In this document: in pieces, positions 31,019 to 62,272 of the stretch
Layout: every line of letters starts with the position of its first letter
How positions within the stretch are numbered: position 1 is the first letter of the stretch
Assembly (NCBI GenBank): GCA_011525805.1
Contig: WYBR01000047.1
Span: 1 to 64,000, forward strand
Length of the DNA stretch: 64,000 nt
Direction of reading: 5' to 3'
From: Vicinamibacteraceae bacterium
GTDB lineage: Bacteria > Planctomycetota > Phycisphaerae > Phycisphaerales > UBA5793
Notes under the pieces: generated by a model
Told to the model about the DNA's origin: nothing
Database searches by the model: none
What the model saw: only the letters and a program-made list of their open reading frames with translations
Translations under genes and position numbers: made by a program

Positions 31019-32392
31019 GTGAGCGAATGGGACAACAGCGAGGAACACGGCGAGGAGCACGTCGAACGCGCGCACGAACTCTTCGAACTCGGCCGGTGGG
31101 AAGAGGCGGAGGCCGAACTGCGCAAGGCCCTCGCCCTCAATCCCGACCAGTCGGACTGGACGTACAACCTCGGCCTGACGCTCGAGGCCGCCGGCCGGCT
31201 CGCGGAGGCGATTGAGGCCTTCGCCGCAGTTCACCGACTCGACGCGCATCACTTCCCCGCGCTCGTGAGCCTCGGGATCAATCTCAGCCGGATGGACCGC
31301 CCGGCCGAGGCGCTGGCGGCGCTGGAGAAGGCGGCCGCCCTTCAGCCCGACAACGAGGCCGCCTACTGCCCGCAGGTCGGCGCGCTGGCGCAACTGGGCC
31401 GGCACGACGAGGCGGAGCAGGTCTATTACCTCGCGCGGCAGATCCGCGACGAGTGCCCGGTGTGCTGCGCCAATCTCGGTGAGAGCCTGCTGCATCGCGG
31501 CCTGTATGAGAAGGCGATCTGGTGCTTCAAGGAGGCGGTCCGCCTCGACCCGCGCATGCCCCGCGTTCACGCGAGGCTCGCGGCGGCCTATGCGTCGCTC
31601 GGCCAACCCGAGCAGGCGCTGCGCCTGTACCTGCGCGACCTGCGCGAAGACCCGGGCAACATCGACACGCTGCTGGACCTCGGCCTTCACCTGGTGGCGA
31701 TGGACCGGCTTCCGGAGGCGGCCGAGAAGTTCCGCCGCATCCTCGAACTCGAGCCGACCAACGCCGATGCGCACTTCCGCCTCGGCCAGATCGCGGTCGC
31801 GGCGCGCCATTTCGACGCCGCCGCCGTCGAGTTCGAACTGGTGTCCAAACTCAATCCGGAGTATCCGGGCGTCGCGCTCAATACGGCGATCGTGATGCAC
31901 CACACGGGGCGGCACGACGTGGCGCGGCGGCACCTTGCGACGGTCATGGAGTCGCTCACGCCCCAGGAGCCCGACCTCCTCGGCCTGGCGGACCTGCTCA
32001 AGGAAGTCGGGATGAAGGCCCAGGCGGAGCGCGCCCTTACGCTCCTGACGCAGCGCGAACCGCGCAACGCCCAGGCCTGGCACCGCCTCGGCGTGCTGCA
32101 CCTTCGCAAGGGCGACTACGACGAGGGCATCGAGTACACCCGCCGCGCGCTGCGCCTCGATCCCTCCCATGAGCGAGCCAACCACAACCTCCTGCTCGCC
32201 TACATCCGTTCGGGGCAGCACCAGCGGGCGCGAATCATGCTCCGCCGCGCCCTCAAGGCGGCGCCCGACGATCCGATCCTGCGCCGCCTCGCGGTGCGAT
32301 TCCAGACCTTGTCGCTGATCTATCGGGCCGGGCGGGTGCTGCGGCGGCTGATCGAGCGCCGCCTCGGGCTGGGCGCTTCCTCGGCCGCCTGA
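31019..32392 (+). CDS. Tetratricopeptide repeat protein
   Basis: 457 residues from GTG 31019, with GAGGA about 9 nt upstream. It is almost entirely TPR units of 34 residues (LFELGRWEEAEAELRKALAL, NLGESLLHRGLYEKAIWCF, RLAAAYASLGQPEQALRLY, LGLHLVAMDRLPEAAEKF, LGVLHLRKGDYDEGIEYT, and others), roughly ten to twelve of them. There is no signal peptide, so it is likely cytoplasmic. TPR proteins bind peptides or partner proteins. It lies just upstream of the barrel/cytochrome pair on the same strand (57 bp before the barrel start) and may assist it, but a separate promoter-like element precedes the barrel gene. Confidence 0.8.
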   Translation: MSEWDNSEEHGEEHVERAHELFELGRWEEAEAELRKALALNPDQSDWTYNLGLTLEAAGRLAEAIEAFAAVHRLDAHHFPALVSLGINLSRMDRPAEALAALEKAAALQPDNEAAYCPQVGALAQLGRHDEAEQVYYLARQIRDECPVCCANLGESLLHRGLYEKAIWCFKEAVRLDPRMPRVHARLAAAYASLGQPEQALRLYLRDLREDPGNIDTLLDLGLHLVAMDRLPEAAEKFRRILELEPTNADAHFRLGQIAVAARHFDAAAVEFELVSKLNPEYPGVALNTAIVMHHTGRHDVARRHLATVMESLTPQEPDLLGLADLLKEVGMKAQAERALTLLTQREPRNAQAWHRLGVLHLRKGDYDEGIEYTRRALRLDPSHERANHNLLLAYIRSGQHQRARIMLRRALKAAPDDPILRRLAVRFQTLSLIYRAGRVLRRLIERRLGLGASSAA

Positions 32393-32413: not shown

Positions 32414-32442
32414 TTGCTGCGCGCCGGTGCGGCGTCTATCTT
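32414..32442 (+). promoter_or_regulatory. Sigma-70-like promoter TTGCTG-17-TATCTT for the barrel gene
   Basis: TTGCTG (32414-32419) and TATCTT (32437-32442) are separated by the optimal 17 bp. The GTG at 32450 follows 7 nt after the -10, so the mRNA would be leaderless. Confidence 0.45.
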
Positions 32443-32449
32443 GGTGCGC

Positions 32450-34330
32450 GTGGCGCACCAACCCGGGCGGGACAGATCGCGCGTTTGGGCCGCGGCCGCA
32501 GTCATCGGCGCCGGGCTGATGCTGTCGAATGACCCCGCCGCGCTCGGCCAGCCGCCGCGGCGCACGCCGCCTGCGGAGCCGCCCGCTCAAGCGCCTCCCG
32601 AAGACGCGCCCGCCGCCGAGACGCCGCAATCGCCCGAGACGCCGACGCTTCTGCCCGCGATCCCCCTTGAACCGCTCGGCCACTCCGGCCCGGCCGGCGG
32701 CGGCGAGTGGATCCGCCGCGAAGCCGCCGTCCCCATGCCCGACCGCTGGCGCCTCGGGTGGTTTGACTGGGACCGCTACGGCCGGCGCGGGCCGCACGAC
32801 GACCTCCTGATGAACGCCGTCGGAGGCGACTCGCCCTACACCCGCGGCCATGCCTTCAACCCCTACGACCGCAACATCCTCAAGGGCGACTACCCGATCG
32901 CCGGCGATGATCTCTTCTTCAACTTCACCGCCATCTCCGACACGTTCCTCACCGCGCGCAAACTGCCCACGCCCTCGGGCGCCAGCGCCGGCGATCCGGG
33001 GCGATTCGACTTCTTCGGCGACGGCGAGCAGTTCTTCATCAACCAGAACTTCATCTTCTCCTTCGAGTTGTTCCAGGGGTACACGGCTTTCCGGCCCGTG
33101 GACTGGCTCCTTCGCGTCACGCCGGTCATCAACTTCAACCGCCTCGAACTCAACGAGCACAACGCCGCGTTCATCGACACGCGCCAGGGCGAGACGCGCG
33201 GCGACAACCACGTCGCGCTTGCGGAAACGTTCCTCGAACTTCACCTCGGAGACACCAGCCCCAAGTTTGACATCGCCGCTCTGCGACTCGGGCGCCAGCA
33301 GTTCAACTCCGACTTCCGCGGCTTCATCTTCAATGACAATTCCGATGGCGTGCGCCTGCTGGGCAACTTCGACTCGAACCGCATCCAATACAACCTCACC
33401 TTCTTCACCCAGACCGAGAAGGACACCAACAGCCAACTCAACGAACTCGACTGGCGCGACCAGCAGGTCGTCATCGCCAACCTGTACCTCCAGGACTTCC
33501 TCTGGGACGGCTACACGACGCAGTTCAGTTTCCACTGGAATCACGATCAATCGGACCTGCGCTACGACGAGAACGGCTTTCTCGTGCGACCGAGCCTCGC
33601 CGGCAGCGTCTCGCTCCAGAACATTGACGCCTTCTACCTTGGCTGGGCGAGCGACGGGCACATCGGACGGCTCAACGTGAATCACGCGCTGTACTACGTC
33701 CTCGGCGAAGATCGGCGCAACCCGATCGCCGGCCGCGACGTGGACATCAGCGCCTACCTCGCCGCGATCGAACTCTCGTACGACATCGACTGGCTGAGGC
33801 CGAAGGTCTCGCTGCTCTACCAGAGCGGCGACGACGATCCGGAGGACGGGCGCGGCGAGGGGTTTGACGGCATCTTCGACAACCCCTTCTTCGCCGGCGG
33901 CCCCGGCAGTTTCTACCAGGGTCAGGCGGTGCGCCTCTTCGGCGTCGATCTCACCAGCGCCCGCAGTTTCTACAACGACCTCGCGGGGACCAAGGCGGAG
34001 GGGCAGGCGAACTACGTCAATCCGGGGCTGCTGCTGCTCAACACCGGCTTCGATGCGGAGATCACGCCGAAACTCCGCACCAGTTTCAACGCCAGCAGCC
34101 TCTGGTTCGCTCAGACCGAGACGCTCGAACTCTTCCTGAATCAGAACGGCATCGACCCGCACCTCGGGTACGAACTCAACCTGAGCACGCAGTACCGCCC
34201 GGCATTGAACAACAATGTGATTCTCACGCTGGGCGGCTCGCTCTTCTTTCCGGGCGATGGATTCACGGACATCTTCGACACCGACGAGACGCTCTGGCAG
34301 ATCTTCGCCGGCGTCACGCTGTCCTACTGA
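32450..34330 (+). CDS. Predicted outer-membrane beta-barrel protein paired with decahaem cytochrome
   Basis: About 626 residues from GTG 32450. Start alternatives are TTG 32414 and GTG 32444. A signal region (VWAAAAVIGAGLMLS) is followed by a Pro/Ala-rich linker to residue ~75. The rest is rich in alternating aromatic/polar strands ending in aromatic residues (FFNFTAISDTF, RIQYNLTFFTQTEKD, TTQFSFHWNHDQSDLRYDE, HALYYVLGEDRRN, AIELSYDIDWLRPKVSLLY) and finishes IFAGVTLSY, with the terminal aromatic typical of outer-membrane barrels. No haem motif is present. It resembles porins that partner multihaem cytochromes in electron conduits, and the next gene begins 10 bp after its stop. Substrate and exact family are not known. 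Confidence 0.75.
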   Translation: MAHQPGRDRSRVWAAAAVIGAGLMLSNDPAALGQPPRRTPPAEPPAQAPPEDAPAAETPQSPETPTLLPAIPLEPLGHSGPAGGGEWIRREAAVPMPDRWRLGWFDWDRYGRRGPHDDLLMNAVGGDSPYTRGHAFNPYDRNILKGDYPIAGDDLFFNFTAISDTFLTARKLPTPSGASAGDPGRFDFFGDGEQFFINQNFIFSFELFQGYTAFRPVDWLLRVTPVINFNRLELNEHNAAFIDTRQGETRGDNHVALAETFLELHLGDTSPKFDIAALRLGRQQFNSDFRGFIFNDNSDGVRLLGNFDSNRIQYNLTFFTQTEKDTNSQLNELDWRDQQVVIANLYLQDFLWDGYTTQFSFHWNHDQSDLRYDENGFLVRPSLAGSVSLQNIDAFYLGWASDGHIGRLNVNHALYYVLGEDRRNPIAGRDVDISAYLAAIELSYDIDWLRPKVSLLYQSGDDDPEDGRGEGFDGIFDNPFFAGGPGSFYQGQAVRLFGVDLTSARSFYNDLAGTKAEGQANYVNPGLLLLNTGFDAEITPKLRTSFNASSLWFAQTETLELFLNQNGIDPHLGYELNLSTQYRPALNNNVILTLGGSLFFPGDGFTDIFDTDETLWQIFAGVTLSY

Positions 34331-34340
34331 CGGAGGCGGC

Positions 34341-37300
34341 ATGGAGCGCGATCGAATGCAGTGGCCGCAAAGAGGCACAAGGGGCGCAAAGAGCACCGGA
34401 AGAGAGTCGTCACGACGCTCCTCTCTCCCTTCTCATTCTGCGCCTTCTGTGCCTTTTCGTGGCTGGCCCTCTCTGTGCCCTCTGTGCCTCTGTGGTTTGA
34501 TTTCGATCGTGGTGCTCGCGGCGTGCGAGCACGCCAAGCACTGGCGCGGCGGCGAGCCGTATGACCGCGCCTTCATCACGCGGGTGAGCGATCCGCACGA
34601 AGCCAAGCGCGAAATCGACGGCCGCATGACCGCGACGCCTCACCGCAACGACCTGCCCGAGAAGCCCGACGGCAGTGGCCGTTACTCCGTGGATGAGTGG
34701 GTGATGCACCAGTCCACCGGCTGCATGTCCTGCCACGGCGAGTACGACAAGGCCGAGCGGACGATGCACCCGGCGCCGATCACCGCGGCAGTGGGGTGCG
34801 TCGGCTGCCACGGCGGCGATGCCTCCATCACCTCGCCCCTCGAAGCGCCGGGCCGGCCGGGTGAGCCGGGCACGCCGATCGCCGATGCGGCGTATCTCGA
34901 CGCCATGCAGCGCGCGCACGTCCAGCCGCGCAACGCCCAGGCGTGGTACGGCCGCCACGACGACGGCCACTTCGGCTCGCACCACGCCGCGCACGATCCG
35001 GCGCTGCTGCACGGCTCGCGCAATCCTGAGATCACTGCCGCCCTGCTCAATCAGGAGTCGCCCGAGTTCATCCGCTTCATCAACCCCGGCGACCTGCGCA
35101 TTGCTGATTACACGTGCGGTTCGTGCCACTACTCCATCACCCAGCGCGTCAAGCGCTCGATGATGGCCCACGGGGCGCAACTCTGGGGCGCGGCGCTCTA
35201 CAACAACGGCTCCATCCCCAACAAGGTCCCGATCTACGGCGAGAGTTACTCGCCCTTCGGCCTGCCGCAGATGCTCCAGGGCGTCGTCGAAGTCACCAGT
35301 GAGCGTGAGCGGATGAGCATCACCCGGCCCGCGACGGAGGCGGAACTGCAGCGCGGCGTCGTGCCCTACCTCCTCTCCCTGCCGACGTGGAACATCAGCC
35401 AGCCCGGCAACATTCTGCGCATCTTCGAGCGAGGCACGAAATTGCCCGTGCCCGGCGGCGCCACGCCCAACGCCAATCCCGCCGAGGTCGGCAACCCAAA
35501 CGCCCTCGTCGAAGGCGGCCGGCCCGACAAGGGCCTCTCGCCGCGCGGCCTCGGCACGCTCAACCGGACCGATCCCGTCTTCATCGGCCTCCAGAAGACC
35601 CGCCTGCTCGACCCCACGCTCAACTTCCTCGGCACCAACGATCATCCCGGCGACTATCGATCCTCCGGCTGCACCGCGTGCCACGTGCCCTACGCCAACG
35701 ACCGCGATCCCTACCACAGCGGCGAGACGCTGGCGAAGTTTGGCCATCTCGGCCTCGCTGCCGACCAGAACGACCCGAACATTCCCAAGGACGAGTCCGG
35801 CCATCCGGTAGGGCACGTGATGACCAGCGCCGTACCCAACAGCCAGTGCATCACCTGCCACATCCACCCCGGCACGAGTTACGCGAACACCTACCTGGGC
35901 TACATGTGGTGGGACAACGAGTCCGACGGCGAGTTCTTCTATCCCAGCCGCTCGCACAAGCCGACGACCGAGCAGGAGGCGCAGCACCTTCGGCGCAATC
36001 CCGAGAGCGCAGCGCTGCGCGGCCTGTGGGGCAATCTGTATCCCGATGCGATCTCCCACGCCGGCGAGCGCAGCGGGCCGGACTTCCTCGAGCGCAGCGG
36101 CGAGCCGCGCCAGGGCGACGGCTCGACGCTCAACGATCGCCTGCGCCACAACCAGATCGCCGACTTCCACGGTCACGGCTGGGTCTTCCGCGCCGTACAC
36201 AAGAAGGACCGCCGCGGCAACCTGCTCGACGCCGGCGGCGAAGTCATCGATCCCGACGATCCGCACAAGTGGGACAAGGCGGTCCACCTGCGCGACGTTC
36301 ACCTCGAGCGCGGCATGCATTGCATCGACTGCCACTTCACCCAGGACGTCCACGGCGACGGGCGGCTCTACGGCGAAGTGCGCAACGCCATCGAAATCAC
36401 CTGCGTCGATTGCCACGGCTCCTACACGCAGCGCGCCACGCTCAAGACGAGCGGCCCGGCCGCCCCGCCCGGCGGGACCAACCTCGCCACGCGCACCGTG
36501 CTCAACGGGCCGCAGTTTGAACGTCGCGGCGACACCATCATCCAGCGGTCCGCGGTGACGCGCGGCCTCGAATGGGTCATCCCGCAGACGGTGGACACCA
36601 TCAACCCCGACTCCGACTGGGCGAAAGCGAATCCCGAGGCCGCGGCGCTGAGCCGGCGCGCCAAGACCATGCGCCGCGACGGCGTGACGTGGGGCGATCT
36701 GAAGGTCGAGGAGGGGCGCGACCTCGAGTTCGCCCACTCCATGGACAACATGGAGTGCTACACCTGCCACACCTCGTGGATGACTTCCTGCTTCGGCTGC
36801 CACCTGCCCATGGAAGCCAACCAGCGGGCTCCCATGCTCCATAACGAGAGCCTCTTCACGCGCAATTACACGCGCTACAACTTCCAGGTCCTCCGCGACG
36901 ACGTCTTCATGCTCGGCAAGGACTCGACCGTCAAGGGCGGCCGCGTCGTGCCCGTGCGCTCCAGCAGCGCTGTGCTCGTGTCAAGCCAGAACGCCAACCG
37001 CGAGTGGGTCTACCACCAGCAGCAGACCATCAGCGGCGAGGGCTACAGCGGGCAGGCGTTCAACCCCCACTTCCCCCACGCTACCGGCGGCCGCGGCACG
37101 ACGAAGATGTGCACCGACTGCCATCTCTCCAAGAGCAACGACAACAATGCGTGGATGGCGCAGTTGTTTCTTCAAGGAACGAACTTCGTCAACTTCGTCG
37201 GCCGCTACGCGTACGTCGCCACCGGGCGCGAGGGGCTGGAGGCCGTCGTCGTCACCGAGCACGATGAGCCGCAGGCGGTGATCGGCTCGCACCTGCACCA

Positions 37301-38684
37301 TCTCGCGTATCCCGATGAGCATACGCGATTCGTCGAGCGCGACCGCCGGCTGCTGCGCGAGGCGCATCACCACGACGCCGGCTGGGGCGGCGAGATTCTC
37401 GACGTGCAGTTGCGCGGCGAGTACCTCTACGCGGCCCGGGGCGCCGGCGGCTTCTACGCCTACGACGTCGCCAGCATCGACAACAAGGGCTTCAGCGAAC
37501 GCATCGTCACCGCGCCCGTCTCGCCCCTGGGGCAGAATCTCGGCTTCAGGACCAGTTACGCCGTCGCCGTCGCCAGCCCGAGCACGCTCGCCGTCGATCC
37601 CGCCCGCTCGCGCTTCTCGACCGATCCCGACACGCCCCGCCAGACGATGCTCGACGAGCGATCCGTCGAGGACGCGCATCTCGTCAACGAAGAGCAACCC
37701 ATCCACCCCCTCTACGCCTACCTCTACATCGCCGACCGCGATGAGGGGCTGATTCTCACCTTCGCCGGCACGCTGCTCGACGGCGATCCGACGAACAACT
37801 TCATGGAGCGGGCGGTGTTCGCCGACGGCTCGACAGCCTTCAACCCCGGCGGCGCGCTCACCGGCATGACGCACCTCACGCTGGCGGGGCACTATCTCTA
37901 CGCGACCGCCGCGGCGGGCCTGGTCGTCATCAACATCGACAAGCCTCTCGAACCGCGCGTCGAGATGGTCGCCGGCAGCGATGTGCTGAGCAATCCGCGC
38001 AGCGTGGCCGTGCAGTTCCGCTACGCCTTCATCACCGACGAGCGCGGCCTGCACGTGGCGGACATCACCGATCCCGCGTCGCCGCGCTTCGTTGACGGCG
38101 CGAGCGTCGAACTCGAAGACGCCCGGCGCGTCTACATTGCGCGGACGAACGCCTTCGTCGCCGCCGGCTCGCAGGGGCTGGCGATCATCGACATCACGAA
38201 CCCCGAGCGGCCGCGTCTGGACCAATTGTTCACCGCCGACGGTTCGATCGACGATGCGCGCGATGTGAAGGTCGGCATGACCAACGCCTCGCTCTACGCC
38301 TACGTCGCCGATGGCCGCAACGGCCTGCGCGTGATCGAACTCATGGGCCCGCACACGACGCCGCAGTTCCGCGGCTTCTCGCCGCCGCTGTCGCCGCGAC
38401 TCATCGCGACGTACCGCACGCACGGCCCGGCGCTGGCGGTGAGCAAGGGACTCGACCGCGACCGCGCCGTCGATGAATCCGGCCACCAGGTCGCCGTCTT
38501 CGGCCGCCTCGGCTCGCGCCCCCTGCAACTCGAAGAGATGCGCCGCATGTTCGTGCGCGGCGGGGCGGTGTGGAAAGTGAGCGACAAGGCGGAGACCGAG
38601 CCCCGCCCCTTCGCCGCGGAAGAGGAAAAGAAAGAAGAGTCCTCGCCCCCCGTCCGCCCACCCCGCCGGCCGGGGCAGCGGTGA
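34341..38684 (+). CDS. Decahaem c-type cytochrome lipoprotein with C-terminal LVIVD beta-propeller
   Basis: 1447 residues; GGAGG lies 4 nt before the ATG. Ten CXXCH haem sites occur at residues ~128, 153, 259, 444, 503, 661, 688, 806, 817 and 924 (CMSCH, CVGCH, CGSCH, CTACH, CITCH, CIDCH, CVDCH, CYTCH, CFGCH, CTDCH). The N-terminus is a lipoprotein signal (ISIVVLAAC, Cys62). After the last haem the protein continues with beta-propeller repeats of the LVIVD type (GLHVADITDPASPRFVDG, GLAIIDITNPERPRLDQ). Covalent haem attachment and export imply a role in electron transfer at the periplasm or outer membrane. The 10-bp gap from the barrel gene implies one transcript. The electron donor or acceptor is unknown. 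A GGCACAAAG-type repeat underlies residues ~9-53. Confidence 0.9.
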   Translation: MERDRMQWPQRGTRGAKSTGRESSRRSSLPSHSAPSVPFRGWPSLCPLCLCGLISIVVLAACEHAKHWRGGEPYDRAFITRVSDPHEAKREIDGRMTATPHRNDLPEKPDGSGRYSVDEWVMHQSTGCMSCHGEYDKAERTMHPAPITAAVGCVGCHGGDASITSPLEAPGRPGEPGTPIADAAYLDAMQRAHVQPRNAQAWYGRHDDGHFGSHHAAHDPALLHGSRNPEITAALLNQESPEFIRFINPGDLRIADYTCGSCHYSITQRVKRSMMAHGAQLWGAALYNNGSIPNKVPIYGESYSPFGLPQMLQGVVEVTSERERMSITRPATEAELQRGVVPYLLSLPTWNISQPGNILRIFERGTKLPVPGGATPNANPAEVGNPNALVEGGRPDKGLSPRGLGTLNRTDPVFIGLQKTRLLDPTLNFLGTNDHPGDYRSSGCTACHVPYANDRDPYHSGETLAKFGHLGLAADQNDPNIPKDESGHPVGHVMTSAVPNSQCITCHIHPGTSYANTYLGYMWWDNESDGEFFYPSRSHKPTTEQEAQHLRRNPESAALRGLWGNLYPDAISHAGERSGPDFLERSGEPRQGDGSTLNDRLRHNQIADFHGHGWVFRAVHKKDRRGNLLDAGGEVIDPDDPHKWDKAVHLRDVHLERGMHCIDCHFTQDVHGDGRLYGEVRNAIEITCVDCHGSYTQRATLKTSGPAAPPGGTNLATRTVLNGPQFERRGDTIIQRSAVTRGLEWVIPQTVDTINPDSDWAKANPEAAALSRRAKTMRRDGVTWGDLKVEEGRDLEFAHSMDNMECYTCHTSWMTSCFGCHLPMEANQRAPMLHNESLFTRNYTRYNFQVLRDDVFMLGKDSTVKGGRVVPVRSSSAVLVSSQNANREWVYHQQQTISGEGYSGQAFNPHFPHATGGRGTTKMCTDCHLSKSNDNNAWMAQLFLQGTNFVNFVGRYAYVATGREGLEAVVVTEHDEPQAVIGSHLHHLAYPDEHTRFVERDRRLLREAHHHDAGWGGEILDVQLRGEYLYAARGAGGFYAYDVASIDNKGFSERIVTAPVSPLGQNLGFRTSYAVAVASPSTLAVDPARSRFSTDPDTPRQTMLDERSVEDAHLVNEEQPIHPLYAYLYIADRDEGLILTFAGTLLDGDPTNNFMERAVFADGSTAFNPGGALTGMTHLTLAGHYLYATAAAGLVVINIDKPLEPRVEMVAGSDVLSNPRSVAVQFRYAFITDERGLHVADITDPASPRFVDGASVELEDARRVYIARTNAFVAAGSQGLAIIDITNPERPRLDQLFTADGSIDDARDVKVGMTNASLYAYVADGRNGLRVIELMGPHTTPQFRGFSPPLSPRLIATYRTHGPALAVSKGLDRDRAVDESGHQVAVFGRLGSRPLQLEEMRRMFVRGGAVWKVSDKAETEPRPFAAEEEKKEESSPPVRPPRRPGQR
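34366..34500. repeat. GCACAAAG/CTTTGTGC-type interspersed repeat inside a coding start
   Basis: The left part (34366-34396) has AAAGAGGCACAAGG and GGCGCAAAGAGCAC. The right part (34437-34500) has the inverted complement as TCTGTGCC repeated several times and ends CTCTGTGGTTTGA. This form is a familiar planctomycete intergenic repeat. Here it lies in frame within the signal-peptide region of the decahaem gene. Confidence 0.65.
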
Positions 38685-38791: not shown

Positions 38792-40087
38792 CTACTCCAC
38801 CAACACTGTGTTACTGGTGGAGCATGCAGTTAGATCCAGGAGCTGGATATAGCCTCCGCAGGCATGGGGGCCGTGTTCGACCTCAATGCGGCCTCGTCCG
38901 CGATGGTCGGAGAATCCGGATTCCACGAGTTGAAGGTGCGGTACGCCCAGTCCAAGGCGGGTTCCGACGCAAGGGCCGGAGGGCACTCGGAAACTCCCGG
39001 TGGTCATGGCGAAGAGCAAGGCCACTTCACCATTGGGCGACCCGCACGCCCACGACACGGCTCCCGAGCCGCTGCCCGGGCAGGCAGAGTAAAGCGGCGT
39101 CATGTGGATCGATCCGCCCGAGCCGCCGAAAGCCCACGTGCTCTCGTCGCTTCCTCCGCCGGCGAGCACGACGCTCCGGCGCGCCACGTCGTAAGCCATG
39201 GCATGAGCGGATCGGGCCGGCGGGCCAATGTCGGTAAGCCGAGTCCAGACCGTTCCATCCCACTCCCAGGTGTCTCCAAGCCGAGTGGGGTAGTAATCGC
39301 TGTATCCGCCGAACAGGATTGAGACCCCGCGCTCAATGTCATACGCCATTGCAGTGCTGAGCCGCTTGCCCGGTCCGACTTCTGCCGCAATCGACCAACT
39401 CACTCCGTCCCACTGCCACGTGCGCTCGCGGTCTGACCCCTGAAGCATGCCTCCGAAGAGCACGACCACGCCGCGCGCCTCATCAAAGCACATGGCATGT
39501 TGTCGGCGAGAAGCGGGTCCCGGCGCGTCGACTCGCTTCCATCGCACACCGTCCCACTCCCATGTATCGCGTTGATCAAGGTAACCGTCCCAGCCGCCAA
39601 AGAGCACCGTTTGACCTCTTGCGCTGTCGAACGCCATCTGATGAAGGAAGCGAGGAGAGGGCCCGGTCGTGCTCACGCGCGTCCAGGTTGCTCCATCCCA
39701 TTCCCACGTGTCGCCGAAGATCGTTGAGTAGGGATAGGTTCCACCGAAGAGCACGGTCACTCCCCGAACACTGTCGTACACCATGGCGTGTTTGGCGCGC
39801 GGTGAGGGTCCACCGGTGGCGACTAGGCGCCAGGTCACACCGTCCCACTCCCATGTGTCTCCGAGAGCGTTGAAGCCGCTTGTGGTTCCACCAAACAGAA
39901 CTGTCACCCCTCGGGCGCTGTCATAGGCCATTGCAGGGTACGATCGTCGGTTTGGAGCACCCTGCGCGACGACCCCCCACGTCCCACAGTCCTGACCGAC
40001 GGCCAGCTGCGGCACCGACGCCATGATAGATGCAACCACGGCACTCCAAACGGACCTTGCCCCGCGGAATGCGACTGAGGAGCGCAT
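38792..40087 (-). CDS. Secreted Kelch-repeat protein with shared C-terminal domain
   Basis: 431 residues. AAGGAGG lies six nt before the ATG at 40087 and a signal peptide follows (VVASIMASVPQLAVG). Six Kelch-type repeats of ~50 residues are plain: each has (A)(M/V)xYDSARGVTVLFGG then DTWEWDGxxW (for example DTWEWDGATWTRV, RTWQWDGVSWSIA), forming a six-bladed propeller. The C-terminal ~95 residues have the export-associated domain (GSFRVPSGPCVGTRLGLGV; GGYIQLLDLTACSTSN). The DNA is visibly less GC-biased than its neighbours, so it may have been acquired recently. Likely extracellular; ligand unknown. Confidence 0.82.
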   Translation of the reverse strand: MRSSVAFRGARSVWSAVVASIMASVPQLAVGQDCGTWGVVAQGAPNRRSYPAMAYDSARGVTVLFGGTTSGFNALGDTWEWDGVTWRLVATGGPSPRAKHAMVYDSVRGVTVLFGGTYPYSTIFGDTWEWDGATWTRVSTTGPSPRFLHQMAFDSARGQTVLFGGWDGYLDQRDTWEWDGVRWKRVDAPGPASRRQHAMCFDEARGVVVLFGGMLQGSDRERTWQWDGVSWSIAAEVGPGKRLSTAMAYDIERGVSILFGGYSDYYPTRLGDTWEWDGTVWTRLTDIGPPARSAHAMAYDVARRSVVLAGGGSDESTWAFGGSGGSIHMTPLYSACPGSGSGAVSWACGSPNGEVALLFAMTTGSFRVPSGPCVGTRLGLGVPHLQLVESGFSDHRGRGRIEVEHGPHACGGYIQLLDLTACSTSNTVLVE

Positions 40088-54097: not shown

Positions 54098-55900
54098 ATG
54101 CAAAGAGGGATCACAAAGGGCCGCCTCGTCGGCCTGATGGTGTTGGCGGCGGCCGCCGCGCCGGTCATGGCGCAGAGCGAACCGCTGCTGGTCGTTCGCG
54201 GGCCGGGCATGAAGAAGGTCCTTACTTCACCGGCCGACGCCGGCATGGCCCGCGCCATGGGCATGCTCTCCCAGCGCCTCAAGGAGATCCCGCACGAGAT
54301 CCAGGCCTTCGCCGGCCATCCCGGCGCCGAGGAAGGCATGGCCGTGCTCACGACCGTCATGCCGCTCATCGGAGGGATGATCGAGCATCCCTGCGAGATC
54401 GCGATCATCGACCACGGCGGCATGGCCGGCGTGCTGCCCAACATCGACGCGCGCATCACGGTGCAGACCGGCGGTGCGGACGTGACGGGCCAGATGCACG
54501 CCGCCCTCCAGTTCATCGCCCAGATGGCGGCGAACGAAGAGGGACTTACCCTCGCCCCCGAAGAAGGCACCAAGCGCATGAAACTCACCTTGCCGATGGG
54601 CCAGGTGCTCTTCGGCCCGGCGAACGAGGCGGGGACGGCCTTCGTCCTCGGATTCGACGCCGCGGGCGACGGTCTGCACCTCGGCGGAGTCGACATCCCC
54701 GCTCCTCCCGAGTTCACCGGACTGAGCCTCGACGGCCAACTTTACGTCAACGTCAAGTCAGCCGCGAACCTCCTCGTGCGCGTCATGGAGTCACACGGTC
54801 AGCCGCAGGCCGAGCAGGTCCGCCAACTCATCGAGCAGTTCTCGCCCGAGGGCGATCTCGACATCGTCGGCGCTTCGGCCATCAAGGGCGATCGGCGATG
54901 GTCGGTCATCCGCGGCCGCGGAATGGTGACGCTGCTCAACAACGTCGCGGCGACCTACGGGGCCATCATCGGCATGACGGAGATCAACACGGAACCGATC
55001 AACGTCGAGGCGTTCCGCCTCATCCCCCAGGATGTCACCATGGCCGGCGTGCAGGTCCAGGACCTCGGCGGCCTGGTCGGCGTGGTCCAGATGGCCGCGT
55101 TCCAACTCGGTCTGCCCGAACTCGCCGGCGTCGTCGAGGCGCTCGGCAAGACGTGGGTGAGTTACATGTCCGACGAGACCGGCGGAGGCGGGCTGACATC
55201 CTTCGTCCTCGTCCAGCCCGACGTGGACGCCGCGGCGATGCGCGACTCCCTCGCCGGACTGATGAACAGCCTCAACCTCCACGCCGCGCCGCTGCACGGC
55301 TACGTGCGGATGCGCTCATGGGAGGCGGCGGATGCGGCCGGCGGGGCGGTGAAACTCCACAGCCTCGCCTTCCCCGGTCTGCCCGTGCCGCTGGAAATCT
55401 CGCTCGGCGTCGTGGATGAACGGCTCGTGATGGGCGTTACGCCGCAAGGCGTGCTCGCGGCCGTCGATCACTGGCGCAGCCGCCGCCCCACGCTCGCCGA
55501 CAACCCGCGCTTCAAGGAAGCCAGCGCCGGTCTGCTCGAGAAGGCGCAGAAGGTCTCCTTCATCGACATGCCGCGCACCATCCAGCGCGGATACCCGGTG
55601 GCGCAGATGCTCGGCTCGGCGATCGCCAACTTCGTCCGCTCGCCGGTCGACCAGTCGCGCGATCCGGGCGTCATCACGCCCTCGATGCGCACCCTTTCGG
55701 CCAACGCCAAGGCGTGGATCGGCGTGACGAGCGTGCAGGGAGGCGACTTCGTCTACGTCTCCAGCGGCGACCCGTCGCTCATGGTCAACGTCGCGGGCGC
55801 GGCCGGGTCGATGGGGCTGACGCCCGCGCTCATCGGCGCCGGTGTCGCCGCGGCCGCGATCGCGGAGGAGCACGGCCACGTCCTGGAGGAAATCCGCTGA
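54098..55900 (+). CDS. Exported protein of unknown function
   Basis: 600 residues. AGGAGA lies 7 nt before the ATG and a signal peptide follows (GLMVLAAAAAPVMA). The body is long and mostly globular with repeated alpha/beta segments (MARAMGMLSQRLKEIPHEIQA, MHAALQFIAQMAANEEGL, MRDSLAGLMNSLNLHAAPL) and ends in a hydrophobic-aliphatic stretch (LIGAGVAAAAIAEEHGH). No motif I recognise. It is divergent from the LPS operon (75 bp between starts). An envelope role is likely from the signal. Confidence 0.65.
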   Translation: MQRGITKGRLVGLMVLAAAAAPVMAQSEPLLVVRGPGMKKVLTSPADAGMARAMGMLSQRLKEIPHEIQAFAGHPGAEEGMAVLTTVMPLIGGMIEHPCEIAIIDHGGMAGVLPNIDARITVQTGGADVTGQMHAALQFIAQMAANEEGLTLAPEEGTKRMKLTLPMGQVLFGPANEAGTAFVLGFDAAGDGLHLGGVDIPAPPEFTGLSLDGQLYVNVKSAANLLVRVMESHGQPQAEQVRQLIEQFSPEGDLDIVGASAIKGDRRWSVIRGRGMVTLLNNVAATYGAIIGMTEINTEPINVEAFRLIPQDVTMAGVQVQDLGGLVGVVQMAAFQLGLPELAGVVEALGKTWVSYMSDETGGGGLTSFVLVQPDVDAAAMRDSLAGLMNSLNLHAAPLHGYVRMRSWEAADAAGGAVKLHSLAFPGLPVPLEISLGVVDERLVMGVTPQGVLAAVDHWRSRRPTLADNPRFKEASAGLLEKAQKVSFIDMPRTIQRGYPVAQMLGSAIANFVRSPVDQSRDPGVITPSMRTLSANAKAWIGVTSVQGGDFVYVSSGDPSLMVNVAGAAGSMGLTPALIGAGVAAAAIAEEHGHVLEEIR

Positions 55901-60478: not shown

Positions 60479-62167
60479 TCAGTTGGCGATCGAGCGCAGT
60501 TCGACGTTGGACTTGACGGACGCTCCGCCGGAGCGCGGCGCGACGGCCTGGAAGGCGGTCCGCCCGATCGGCGCATCCACCGGCACCATGGCCGTAAGCG
60601 TCGCCACGCCGTTCTGGTTGGCGCGGAGCGTGGCGAAGATGACGCCCGGCGTGAGAAGCTCAACATCAAGGCCGAGCGCCGGCAGGCTCGTCGGTCCGAG
60701 TCCGATGACGCGGTCCGACAGGATTCCGGCCTGGCTGTAGGCGAGGTAGACCGCTTCGCGCGGGCGCAGGCCGGTGATCGTCCACGTCGCCTGCTGGCCG
60801 CGGCGGAGATTGGGCATGGTCATCACGAGACCGGCGGCTTCCGAGTTGGCGGGCCGGCCGGGCGTCACACAGCCCATCGTGATCGTGTCGATGTCGCCGG
60901 GCTTGTGCAGGCCGAGCGTCGCGCTGCCCGCGGTCGGGGCGGCGTTGGCCTCGAACCAGAACGTGTAAACCGTGCCGTAGCGCAGCGTGTTGGAGAATTC
61001 GTTGGTGTTGAAGTCTTCGACGTTCCAGGTGACGGAGTCGCCGTTGACCGTCATGCTCCACGCCTCGTTCGAGTAGGGCTCCTCATCCTCGGTCGGGGCG
61101 TGGAAGCCGGCGTTGCTGACGTTCACTCCGGACCCGAGCGAGACGGAGAACGAATTGACCTGCTGCCAGAGGGTGTGGTTGTAGACGGCGTACTCGAAGC
61201 GGAAGTTGCCGCCGCCGAGATCGACGGTGCGCGTGGCGATGATGCCGTCGCCGTGCGTGCGGTCGTTGACGAAGTGGTGGGTGTCGCCCCAGTCCATCAC
61301 GTACAGGCCGCGGACCATGTTCTCGGGATGGCTGAAACTCCAGGTGTCGCCGGAGCGCGAGGCGGTTGTGCGGCGGTAACTGGCGTTGTTGAGATTGTTG
61401 TCGTCGTCGATGACGACGTAGTAGGACTCGTAGTAGAACTGGGCGCCGGAGACGTTGAGGTCGGCGTCGTAGACGCGGAGCATGTGGTCGATGGGTCCGT
61501 GGCTGTGGCTGCTCTCGCGGCAGTCGGGCTGCGAGCCGTTGCCGATGTCGAAGTGCGAGCCGCAGGGATCCCACACGCCGCTGAGGGGGTTGACCTCGAA
61601 GCGCGGGCCGAGCCAGTTGCGATCCGAGTTGTTCCCGCTGCCGTAGGTGTCCTGGCATCCGATGTTGAGGTGGTTGTCGCCGAAGTCCGGATCGCAGGTG
61701 CCGCAGCCGCTGGCGTCGGCCGCGAAGAAGCCGTGCTTGAGCCAGCCGATCCCGATCTGCTCGAGCCGGCCGCCCGAGGTCACTCGATAGAGGTTTTGCG
61801 CGATGAAGGGATGGCGCGGGTCCATCTGCCGGAACCACGGCACGTCGACGTTGCCGATGTTGCACGAGGTCGTCGAGGCCGCCGAGCCGATCCGCCCGTT
61901 CGGGAACGACCCGACGCGGGCGCGCTGCACCAGGCCGGAGAGCGCCGACACCTCGACGTCGAGCAGTTCACCCTCCGGGCCGGCGAGCGAGCCGTCCAGA
62001 AGCGGACGCGCCCAGTCCGGCGCGAGATCATCCGGCTCCTCGAAGGAAGCGGGAAGGATGCGATTGAGCGAGCCCGTAGCCGGCGCCACGGGCGAGATGC
62101 GCAGTTGCGTGGCGGCCATGGCCACGACGCCGCCGGTCAGACCCAGCGCGATCAGACGATAGTTCAT
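60479..62167 (-). CDS. Large secreted protein with shared C-terminal domain
   Basis: 562 residues. AGGGGAT lies ~7 nt before the ATG at 62167 and a signal peptide follows (LIALGLTGGVVAMA). The central part (CGTCDPDFGDNHLNIGCQDTYG... ) is rich in Asp/Asn/Gly and Cys, with calcium-binding-like turns and beta strands (FYYESYYVVIDDDNNLNNASY, NFRFEYAVYNHTLWQQVNSF). The last ~100 residues (MTMPNLRRGQQATWTITGLRP, AYSQAGILSD, ATLRANQNGVATLTAMVPVD, GRTAFQAVAPR, SNVELRSIAN) are the C-terminal domain shared with four other secreted proteins in the window. Function unknown; probably surface or extracellular. Confidence 0.75.
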   Translation of the reverse strand: MNYRLIALGLTGGVVAMAATQLRISPVAPATGSLNRILPASFEEPDDLAPDWARPLLDGSLAGPEGELLDVEVSALSGLVQRARVGSFPNGRIGSAASTTSCNIGNVDVPWFRQMDPRHPFIAQNLYRVTSGGRLEQIGIGWLKHGFFAADASGCGTCDPDFGDNHLNIGCQDTYGSGNNSDRNWLGPRFEVNPLSGVWDPCGSHFDIGNGSQPDCRESSHSHGPIDHMLRVYDADLNVSGAQFYYESYYVVIDDDNNLNNASYRRTTASRSGDTWSFSHPENMVRGLYVMDWGDTHHFVNDRTHGDGIIATRTVDLGGGNFRFEYAVYNHTLWQQVNSFSVSLGSGVNVSNAGFHAPTEDEEPYSNEAWSMTVNGDSVTWNVEDFNTNEFSNTLRYGTVYTFWFEANAAPTAGSATLGLHKPGDIDTITMGCVTPGRPANSEAAGLVMTMPNLRRGQQATWTITGLRPREAVYLAYSQAGILSDRVIGLGPTSLPALGLDVELLTPGVIFATLRANQNGVATLTAMVPVDAPIGRTAFQAVAPRSGGASVKSNVELRSIAN

Positions 62168-62272
62168 GGATGGATCCCCTGTCTGCGAGCGAGCATGAAG
62201 AAAACCGCGGCCCCGCCCCACCACGGGACGCACCGCCACCCCCAGCCTCAGCCGGGACGTACTCAGAATACC

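Follow-up and report, generated by a model that had tools for sequence, protein, structure and literature searches.

A conserved barrel and decahaem-propeller cytochrome pair as a possible outer-membrane station of an electron-transfer system in Planctomycetota

A pair of adjacent genes lies in the middle of a 64,000-nucleotide stretch of DNA, hereafter the window, from a planctomycete of the Phycisphaerales deposited as Vicinamibacteraceae bacterium (assembly GCA_011525805.1, contig WYBR01000047.1, positions 1 to 64,000). The upstream gene (32450..34330, + strand) codes for a predicted outer-membrane beta-barrel protein of 626 residues, and 10 bp separate its stop (34330) from the ATG (34341) of a gene coding for a 1447-residue decahaem c-type cytochrome lipoprotein with a C-terminal LVIVD propeller (34341..38684, + strand). 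An earlier note made from the sequence had described these two genes, with the ten CXXCH motifs, the lipobox and the propeller, and had proposed an electron conduit related to MtrAB. Our results agree with that description of the genes and show that the barrel-cytochrome pair is real and conserved and that other genomes have it too. It is probably no local oddity but the outer terminus of a wiring system that is widespread and has been little studied.

The open reading frame (ORF) of the barrel starts with GTG at 32450, with an alternative in-frame TTG at 32414, and the N-terminal ~100 residues of the protein are rich in proline and predicted to be disordered. The barrel anticipated by the earlier note was obtained in an AlphaFold2 model built from 54 family sequences (pLDDT 87, pTM 0.85), which has 18 long strands within model residues 74-545 (32912..34327, + strand). 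With this model, the top 16 Foldseek matches were all AlgE (best E 5e-18), and VIA also placed AlgE first (Z 28.6, rmsd 2.8, 360 residues aligned), followed by the OprD/Occ channels (Z 22-26). By sequence, PF13372 (Alginate_exp) matches 7 of the 54 family members (best E 7.5e-9), whereas the window protein itself has no PF13372 match; DESULF_POR1, a family of ordinary porins, was matched weakly (E 7e-5). Because of the fold matches, together with PF13372 in those seven members, the protein is predicted to be an 18-strand barrel of the AlgE/OprD type. A fold of the MtrB type was rejected: the Foldseek and VIA matches listed comprise AlgE, OprD/Occ and other porins and do not include MtrB, an absence that alone excludes nothing. 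Strands 13 and 14 are joined by a 68-residue loop (33824..34027, + strand) that strand counting places on the outer side. Of the 51 residues that are invariant in the barrel family, 10 fall in it. Outer loops are not usually so conserved; this suggests a fixed partner, and the loop is a candidate docking site for the cytochrome.

The CXXCH motifs of the cytochrome stand at residues 128, 153, 259, 444, 503, 661, 688, 806, 817 and 924, so that the haem region (residues 128-928; 34722..37124, + strand) has a density of ~90 residues per haem. Among the ORFs of the window above 80 codons, no other contains CXXCH, and chance is therefore excluded for the ten motifs. The lipobox LAAC (residues 59-62, with Cys62; 34515..34526, + strand) is kept in the Planctomycetota relatives (ACEH...) and absent from those of Sphingobium and Sphingopyxis. 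The propeller region (residues ~940-1415; 37158..38585, + strand) matches PF08309 (LVIVD) in three stretches with 63.6 bits against a cut-off of 20.2 (E 1.1e-17). All ten haem motifs are retained in 56 aligned relatives, with haem 3 written as CX4CH in some; this form occurs in the Acidobacteriota cytochromes, and the idea that these are short of one haem was rejected for that reason. Nine histidines outside the motifs (143, 193, 492, 509, 612, 654, 671, 799 and 913) and two methionines (Met275 and Met659) are invariant in the 56 sequences and three more histidines (488, 610 and 649) nearly so. These residues are candidate axial ligands and, judged from the alignment, amount to about as many sixth ligands as ten haems need. 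Because motifs and candidate ligands are conserved in this way, the wide haem spacing, which the earlier note had rightly pointed out, reads in the alignment as a trait of the whole cytochrome family. The propeller fusion, which the earlier note had described as not usual in MtrAB-type systems, is likewise found throughout the family and is part of it.

Comparisons with described cytochromes returned distant likenesses. The model of the haem region (residues 62-960) is middling (pLDDT 69, pTM 0.77), and a fold search of the PDB with it gave no usable match, which does not mean a new fold; PDB sequence searches using single proteins gave no match. A haem profile picked up octahaem nitrite reductase (E 3e-6) and NrfA (E 0.06), the likeness covering a brief segment with a single haem pair. 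The best NCBIfam match of the haem region is ExtM (NF040943; E 9e-24), with 83.8 bits against an equivalog cut-off of 800, and the OmcA/MtrC decahaem family TIGR03507 scores 16.2 bits against a cut-off of 209.3. All ten sites of the cytochrome are CXXCH, and a CXXCK catalytic site was not seen in the 56-sequence alignment.

A scan of bacterial and archaeal genomes gave at least 571 loci with relatives of the cytochrome, and 80 of them were kept for study, belonging to Planctomycetota, Acidobacteriota, Verrucomicrobiota, Nitrospirota, Rokubacteria, Binatia, Ignavibacteriae/Chlorobi and others. Within the order, 10 of 151 genomes carry the cytochrome; they include the four remaining genomes of the genus, at 80-88% identity, and members of further families at 67-72%. 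Outside the order, identity among the kept loci is ~47-56%. Plasmid copies of Sphingobium and Sphingopyxis share 41-44% identity across 94% of the cytochrome length, and in these genera (L015, L016 and plasmid matches) the cluster lies on megaplasmids, some of them typed as conjugative. The earlier note had called for a search for the pair in other genomes, and the two genes are kept together: of the 76 loci whose upstream sequence is long enough, 70 have the barrel gene immediately upstream of the cytochrome and four others have it at a greater distance upstream on the same strand. The arrangement fails in L064, where the barrel is on the other strand, and in L088, where it is far off. Alphaproteobacteria are among the groups that show this linkage.

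Clustering of neighbouring ORFs defined a wider gene set, counted in 65 loci over 15 kb. It includes an HbpS-like protein (49 of the 65 loci), a tetrahaem C554-type cytochrome, a membrane protein of b type, a decahaem cytochrome with FHA and transmembrane parts, and a protein with cyclic-nucleotide-binding and 4Fe-4S domains, which in many loci also has an NAD(P)/FAD domain. The Fe-S protein, the membrane protein and the FHA cytochrome each occur in 35-36 of the 65. The clearest operon-like runs are found in L087, L099, L075 and L090. In relatives the tetrahaem cytochrome has four haems, one as CX4CH, and the cytochromes of the loci have 4, 10 and 10 haems, with no pentahaem member seen. The membrane-protein family (A5) conserves the residues of two WX3HX13H motifs and of SGXXG (W253 at >=90%), and PF13247 matches the Fe-S proteins of relatives with E 2.9e-11 and 8e-10. 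Six loci from metagenome-assembled genomes labelled Acidobacteria or Chloracidobacterium (L042, L051, L053, L063, L072 and L093) have other multihaem cytochromes, of 8-13 haems, which replace or accompany the FHA decahaem protein and may represent an alternative form of the periplasmic part.

The window carries the outer-membrane pair only, and its partners in the same genome lie on other contigs, G000:C95:113960-119785 and C50. The first of these codes for a tetrahaem-type cytochrome (C95:113960-115546, complement), a cyclic-nucleotide/Fe-S protein without the FAD domain (open frame C95:115201-117048), a membrane protein with both WX3HX13H motifs and SGXXG all present (C95:117157-118026), a membrane-anchored 4-haem cytochrome (C95:118071-118724) and a 6-haem cytochrome (C95:118382-119785). 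The third, decahaem cytochrome of the relatives is thus split into 4+6 haems in this genome. Its Fe-S protein scores 23.9 bits with PF13247, just below the cut-off of 26.2. The HbpS-like protein (G000:C50:142746-146651, L029) has 1302 residues with two well-separated HbpS-like regions; its gene is apart from the pair here, whereas other genera, and other genomes of this genus, have it as a divergent neighbour of the pair. Nine of the 151 genomes have the tetrahaem partner (E <= 1e-57), and all nine are among the 10 cytochrome carriers; the tenth carrier, G132, is a fragmented assembly and has the Fe-S protein, and G005, of the same family, has no cytochrome and only weak partner matches. The chance of such a co-occurrence is ~1e-13 by genome and ~1e-7 by genus, figures for which related genomes are not independent. 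Since CytC_asm (PF01578) is matched three times in the genome, cytochrome c maturation is present. The earlier note had held that its reading would fall if the barrel prediction failed, if the haems lacked axial ligands and maturation was missing, or if relatives kept the two genes apart; none of these came true.

The gene set resembles PCC4, a putative porin-cytochrome system reported from Planctomycetes and Alphaproteobacteria as well (He et al. 2017, PMC5566968). In PCC3 and PCC4 the inner-membrane proteins carry two WX3HX13H motifs and SGXXG and are thought to hold two b haems, and the PCC4 cytochromes have 4, 5 and 10 haems, none of them being extracellular (PMC5566968). Both systems link a porin gene to multihaem cytochrome genes with tetrahaem and decahaem members, and both have an inner-membrane protein with exactly this signature beside a pfam13247 Fe-S protein (subgroup II). 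Unlike PCC4, the haem counts here are 4, 10 and 10 (one 10 being the split protein), and the lipoprotein anchor, the LVIVD propeller and the HbpS-like partner go beyond it. Because the haem counts differ and the two were likened by description and motifs, we speak of a likeness in working and not of formal membership. While this kind of porin-cytochrome system is already known, the family itself has very probably been met as well, unnamed, as the porin-cytochrome 'group 1' of metagenome-assembled genomes from the Sterkfontein karst (PMC13264449, 2026). In the part of that account available, 11 clusters have a decahaem gene of 4-5 kb beside a porin of about 20 strands, 7 of the 11 near a ferredoxin-NADP reductase gene; it gives gene counts and sizes only, without propeller, fold, partners or a cross-phylum census.

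The likeness to the conduits of MtrCAB, MtoAB and PioAB is confined to a barrel and a decahaem cytochrome at the outer membrane. The MtrB sheath has ~26-28 strands and MtrA is wire-like, with ~33 residues per haem (PMC5566968), unlike the 18-strand AlgE-type barrel and ~90 residues per haem found here, and there is no family-level sequence match. The MtrAB-type architecture suggested by the earlier note is therefore not upheld. AlgE shares the 18-strand fold along the whole length of the barrel, but with ~15% identity, and the barrel here is paired with a cytochrome and has no linked alginate genes. The Geobacter cluster extHIJKLMNOPQS also combines a porin, several multihaem cytochromes including ExtM, a b-type cytochrome and an Fe-S protein, although it has no propeller, the ExtM match is far below cut-off, ExtI resembles phosphate-selective porins, and rhodanese and Rieske proteins are present there. 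Geobacter requires ExtI to reduce selenite/tellurite, though not Fe(III); this porin has been proposed as a selenite channel, and its loss alters the outer-membrane haem proteins (PMC5877670). Novel porin-multihaem cytochrome clusters, with octahaem cytochromes, were described in Verrucomicrobia including strain IMCC26134 (PMC5615132); this strain carries a barrel of the window type once (L100), and its clusters may or may not belong to our family.

These data are compatible with a chain from the cytosol to the cell exterior. The cyclic-nucleotide-binding/4Fe-4S protein, which in many relatives also has the NAD(P)/FAD oxidoreductase domain, would exchange electrons in the cytosol with the membrane protein and its two b haems; from there electrons could pass to the membrane-anchored multihaem cytochrome, to the periplasmic tetrahaem cytochrome and on to the decahaem-propeller lipoprotein, which would be held at the outer membrane by the barrel and may reduce or oxidise extracellular or porin-admitted substrates, export being the preferred direction. 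We give a probability of about 0.55 to the pair being the outer-membrane station of such a PCC4-like multi-protein system. What the data show is the sequence, the modelled barrel, the haem motifs and ligands kept in relatives, and the linkage and joint occurrence of the genes; that the two proteins form a complex and are exposed at the surface, the way in which electrons would pass the outer membrane, and the proposed direction and substrates are inferred. Of the conduit role advanced in the earlier note, a conserved pair that travels with a redox set reaching from cytosol to periplasm has stood, an architecture of the MtrAB type has not, and the electron crossing itself is a proposal.

Several points weigh against this chain. 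To our knowledge, many of the hosts are not known for extracellular electron transfer, and the sparse haems are unlike the wire of MtrA. The predicted AlgE/OprD-type pore is narrower than the MtrB sheath, and mainly for this reason our confidence does not rise above the figure given. The dispensability of ExtI for Fe(III) (PMC5877670) shows that cytochromes may have a porin as neighbour without its serving as a conduit. The nearest folds are AlgE (Z 28.6) and, at Z 22-26, the substrate channels of OprD/Occ, and PF13372 is matched in 7 of 54 members; the barrel may instead pass a small molecule that a decahaem-propeller oxidoreductase, on the inner or outer face, would convert; the same inner-membrane chain would feed the enzyme, and electrons need not cross the outer membrane. 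The best solved relatives of the haem profile are enzymes (octahaem nitrite reductase, E 3e-6; NrfA, E 0.06), and the best named family, ExtM (E 9e-24, far below cut-off), comes from a selenite/tellurite operon whose porin is a proposed selenite channel. However, this enzyme similarity is restricted to one haem pair, all ten sites are CXXCH without a CXXCK catalytic site, and the lipobox is kept in planctomycetes; we regard the substrate channel as a tentative explanation, less likely than the electron station.

The one-to-one linkage and the conserved loop of 68 residues, presumed to face outwards, would also suit a barrel that docks the cytochrome at the membrane or carries it to the surface while another protein passes the electrons, and the changed outer-membrane haem proteins of Geobacter after ExtI loss (PMC5877670) point the same way. 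No secretion signature was seen, however, and the Sphingobium and Sphingopyxis loci, which keep the barrel without the lipobox, fit an anchor but equally any complex; we consider this role improbable. That an ordinary porin merely happens to lie beside an unrelated cytochrome is hardly credible, as it has nothing beyond the DESULF_POR1 match (E 7e-5) in its favour and is contradicted by linkage in 70-74 of the 76 loci over many phyla. The outer-membrane electron station remains our preferred reading. A bolder form of it, in which a distinct multi-phylum system joins an AlgE-type barrel to a decahaem-propeller protein, has its cytosolic entry gated by cyclic nucleotides (with FHA in relatives) and has export switched by intracellular signalling, is possible, though we think it rather doubtful.

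Should the pair prove to be a true electron terminus, then aerobic soil and freshwater lineages (Acidobacteriota, Verrucomicrobiota, Planctomycetota and Nitrospirota) would use extracellular electron transfer much more widely than has been supposed. The predicted 18-strand barrel would also pose a testable structural question, namely how electrons or substrates get across the outer membrane when no sheath of the MtrB type is there. Through the linked cyclic-nucleotide domains the regulation of such a chain would become testable, and the Sphingobium copies offer cultivated hosts for experiments. In the open-licence literature, where absence is weak evidence, we found no paper joining LVIVD with haem cytochromes in this sense, none on alginate-export barrels with multihaem cytochromes, none on FHA and cyclic-nucleotide domains in porin-cytochrome clusters and no description of an HbpS partner of a porin-cytochrome pair; relative to it, the propeller fusion, the AlgE fold, the HbpS partner and the cyclic-nucleotide/FHA parts would be new.

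Most of the cytochrome leader before the lipobox is an interspersed genomic repeat (34364..34504, + strand) found in 27 places in the genome, with inverted arms at 34368-34393 and 34469-34494. It is now coding within the signal sequence, where it encodes ...CPLCLCG..., and is shorter or absent in same-genus relatives. The lipobox as a by-product of this repeat was rejected, as ACEHAK is kept in relatives that have other leaders. The TPR gene at 31019-32392 was rejected as an operon partner, not being beside the pair in relatives. Between the cytochrome and mnmE lies a gene for a kelch-repeat protein (38792-40087, - strand) with atypical codon-position GC; in the closest relative (L018) mnmE directly follows the cytochrome without it, and two copies similar to it occur farther along the same contig (L026). 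Two further ORFs, at 54098-55897 (+ strand) and 60482-62239 (- strand), have ~600 codons and a coding-like GC bias, without a Pfam match.

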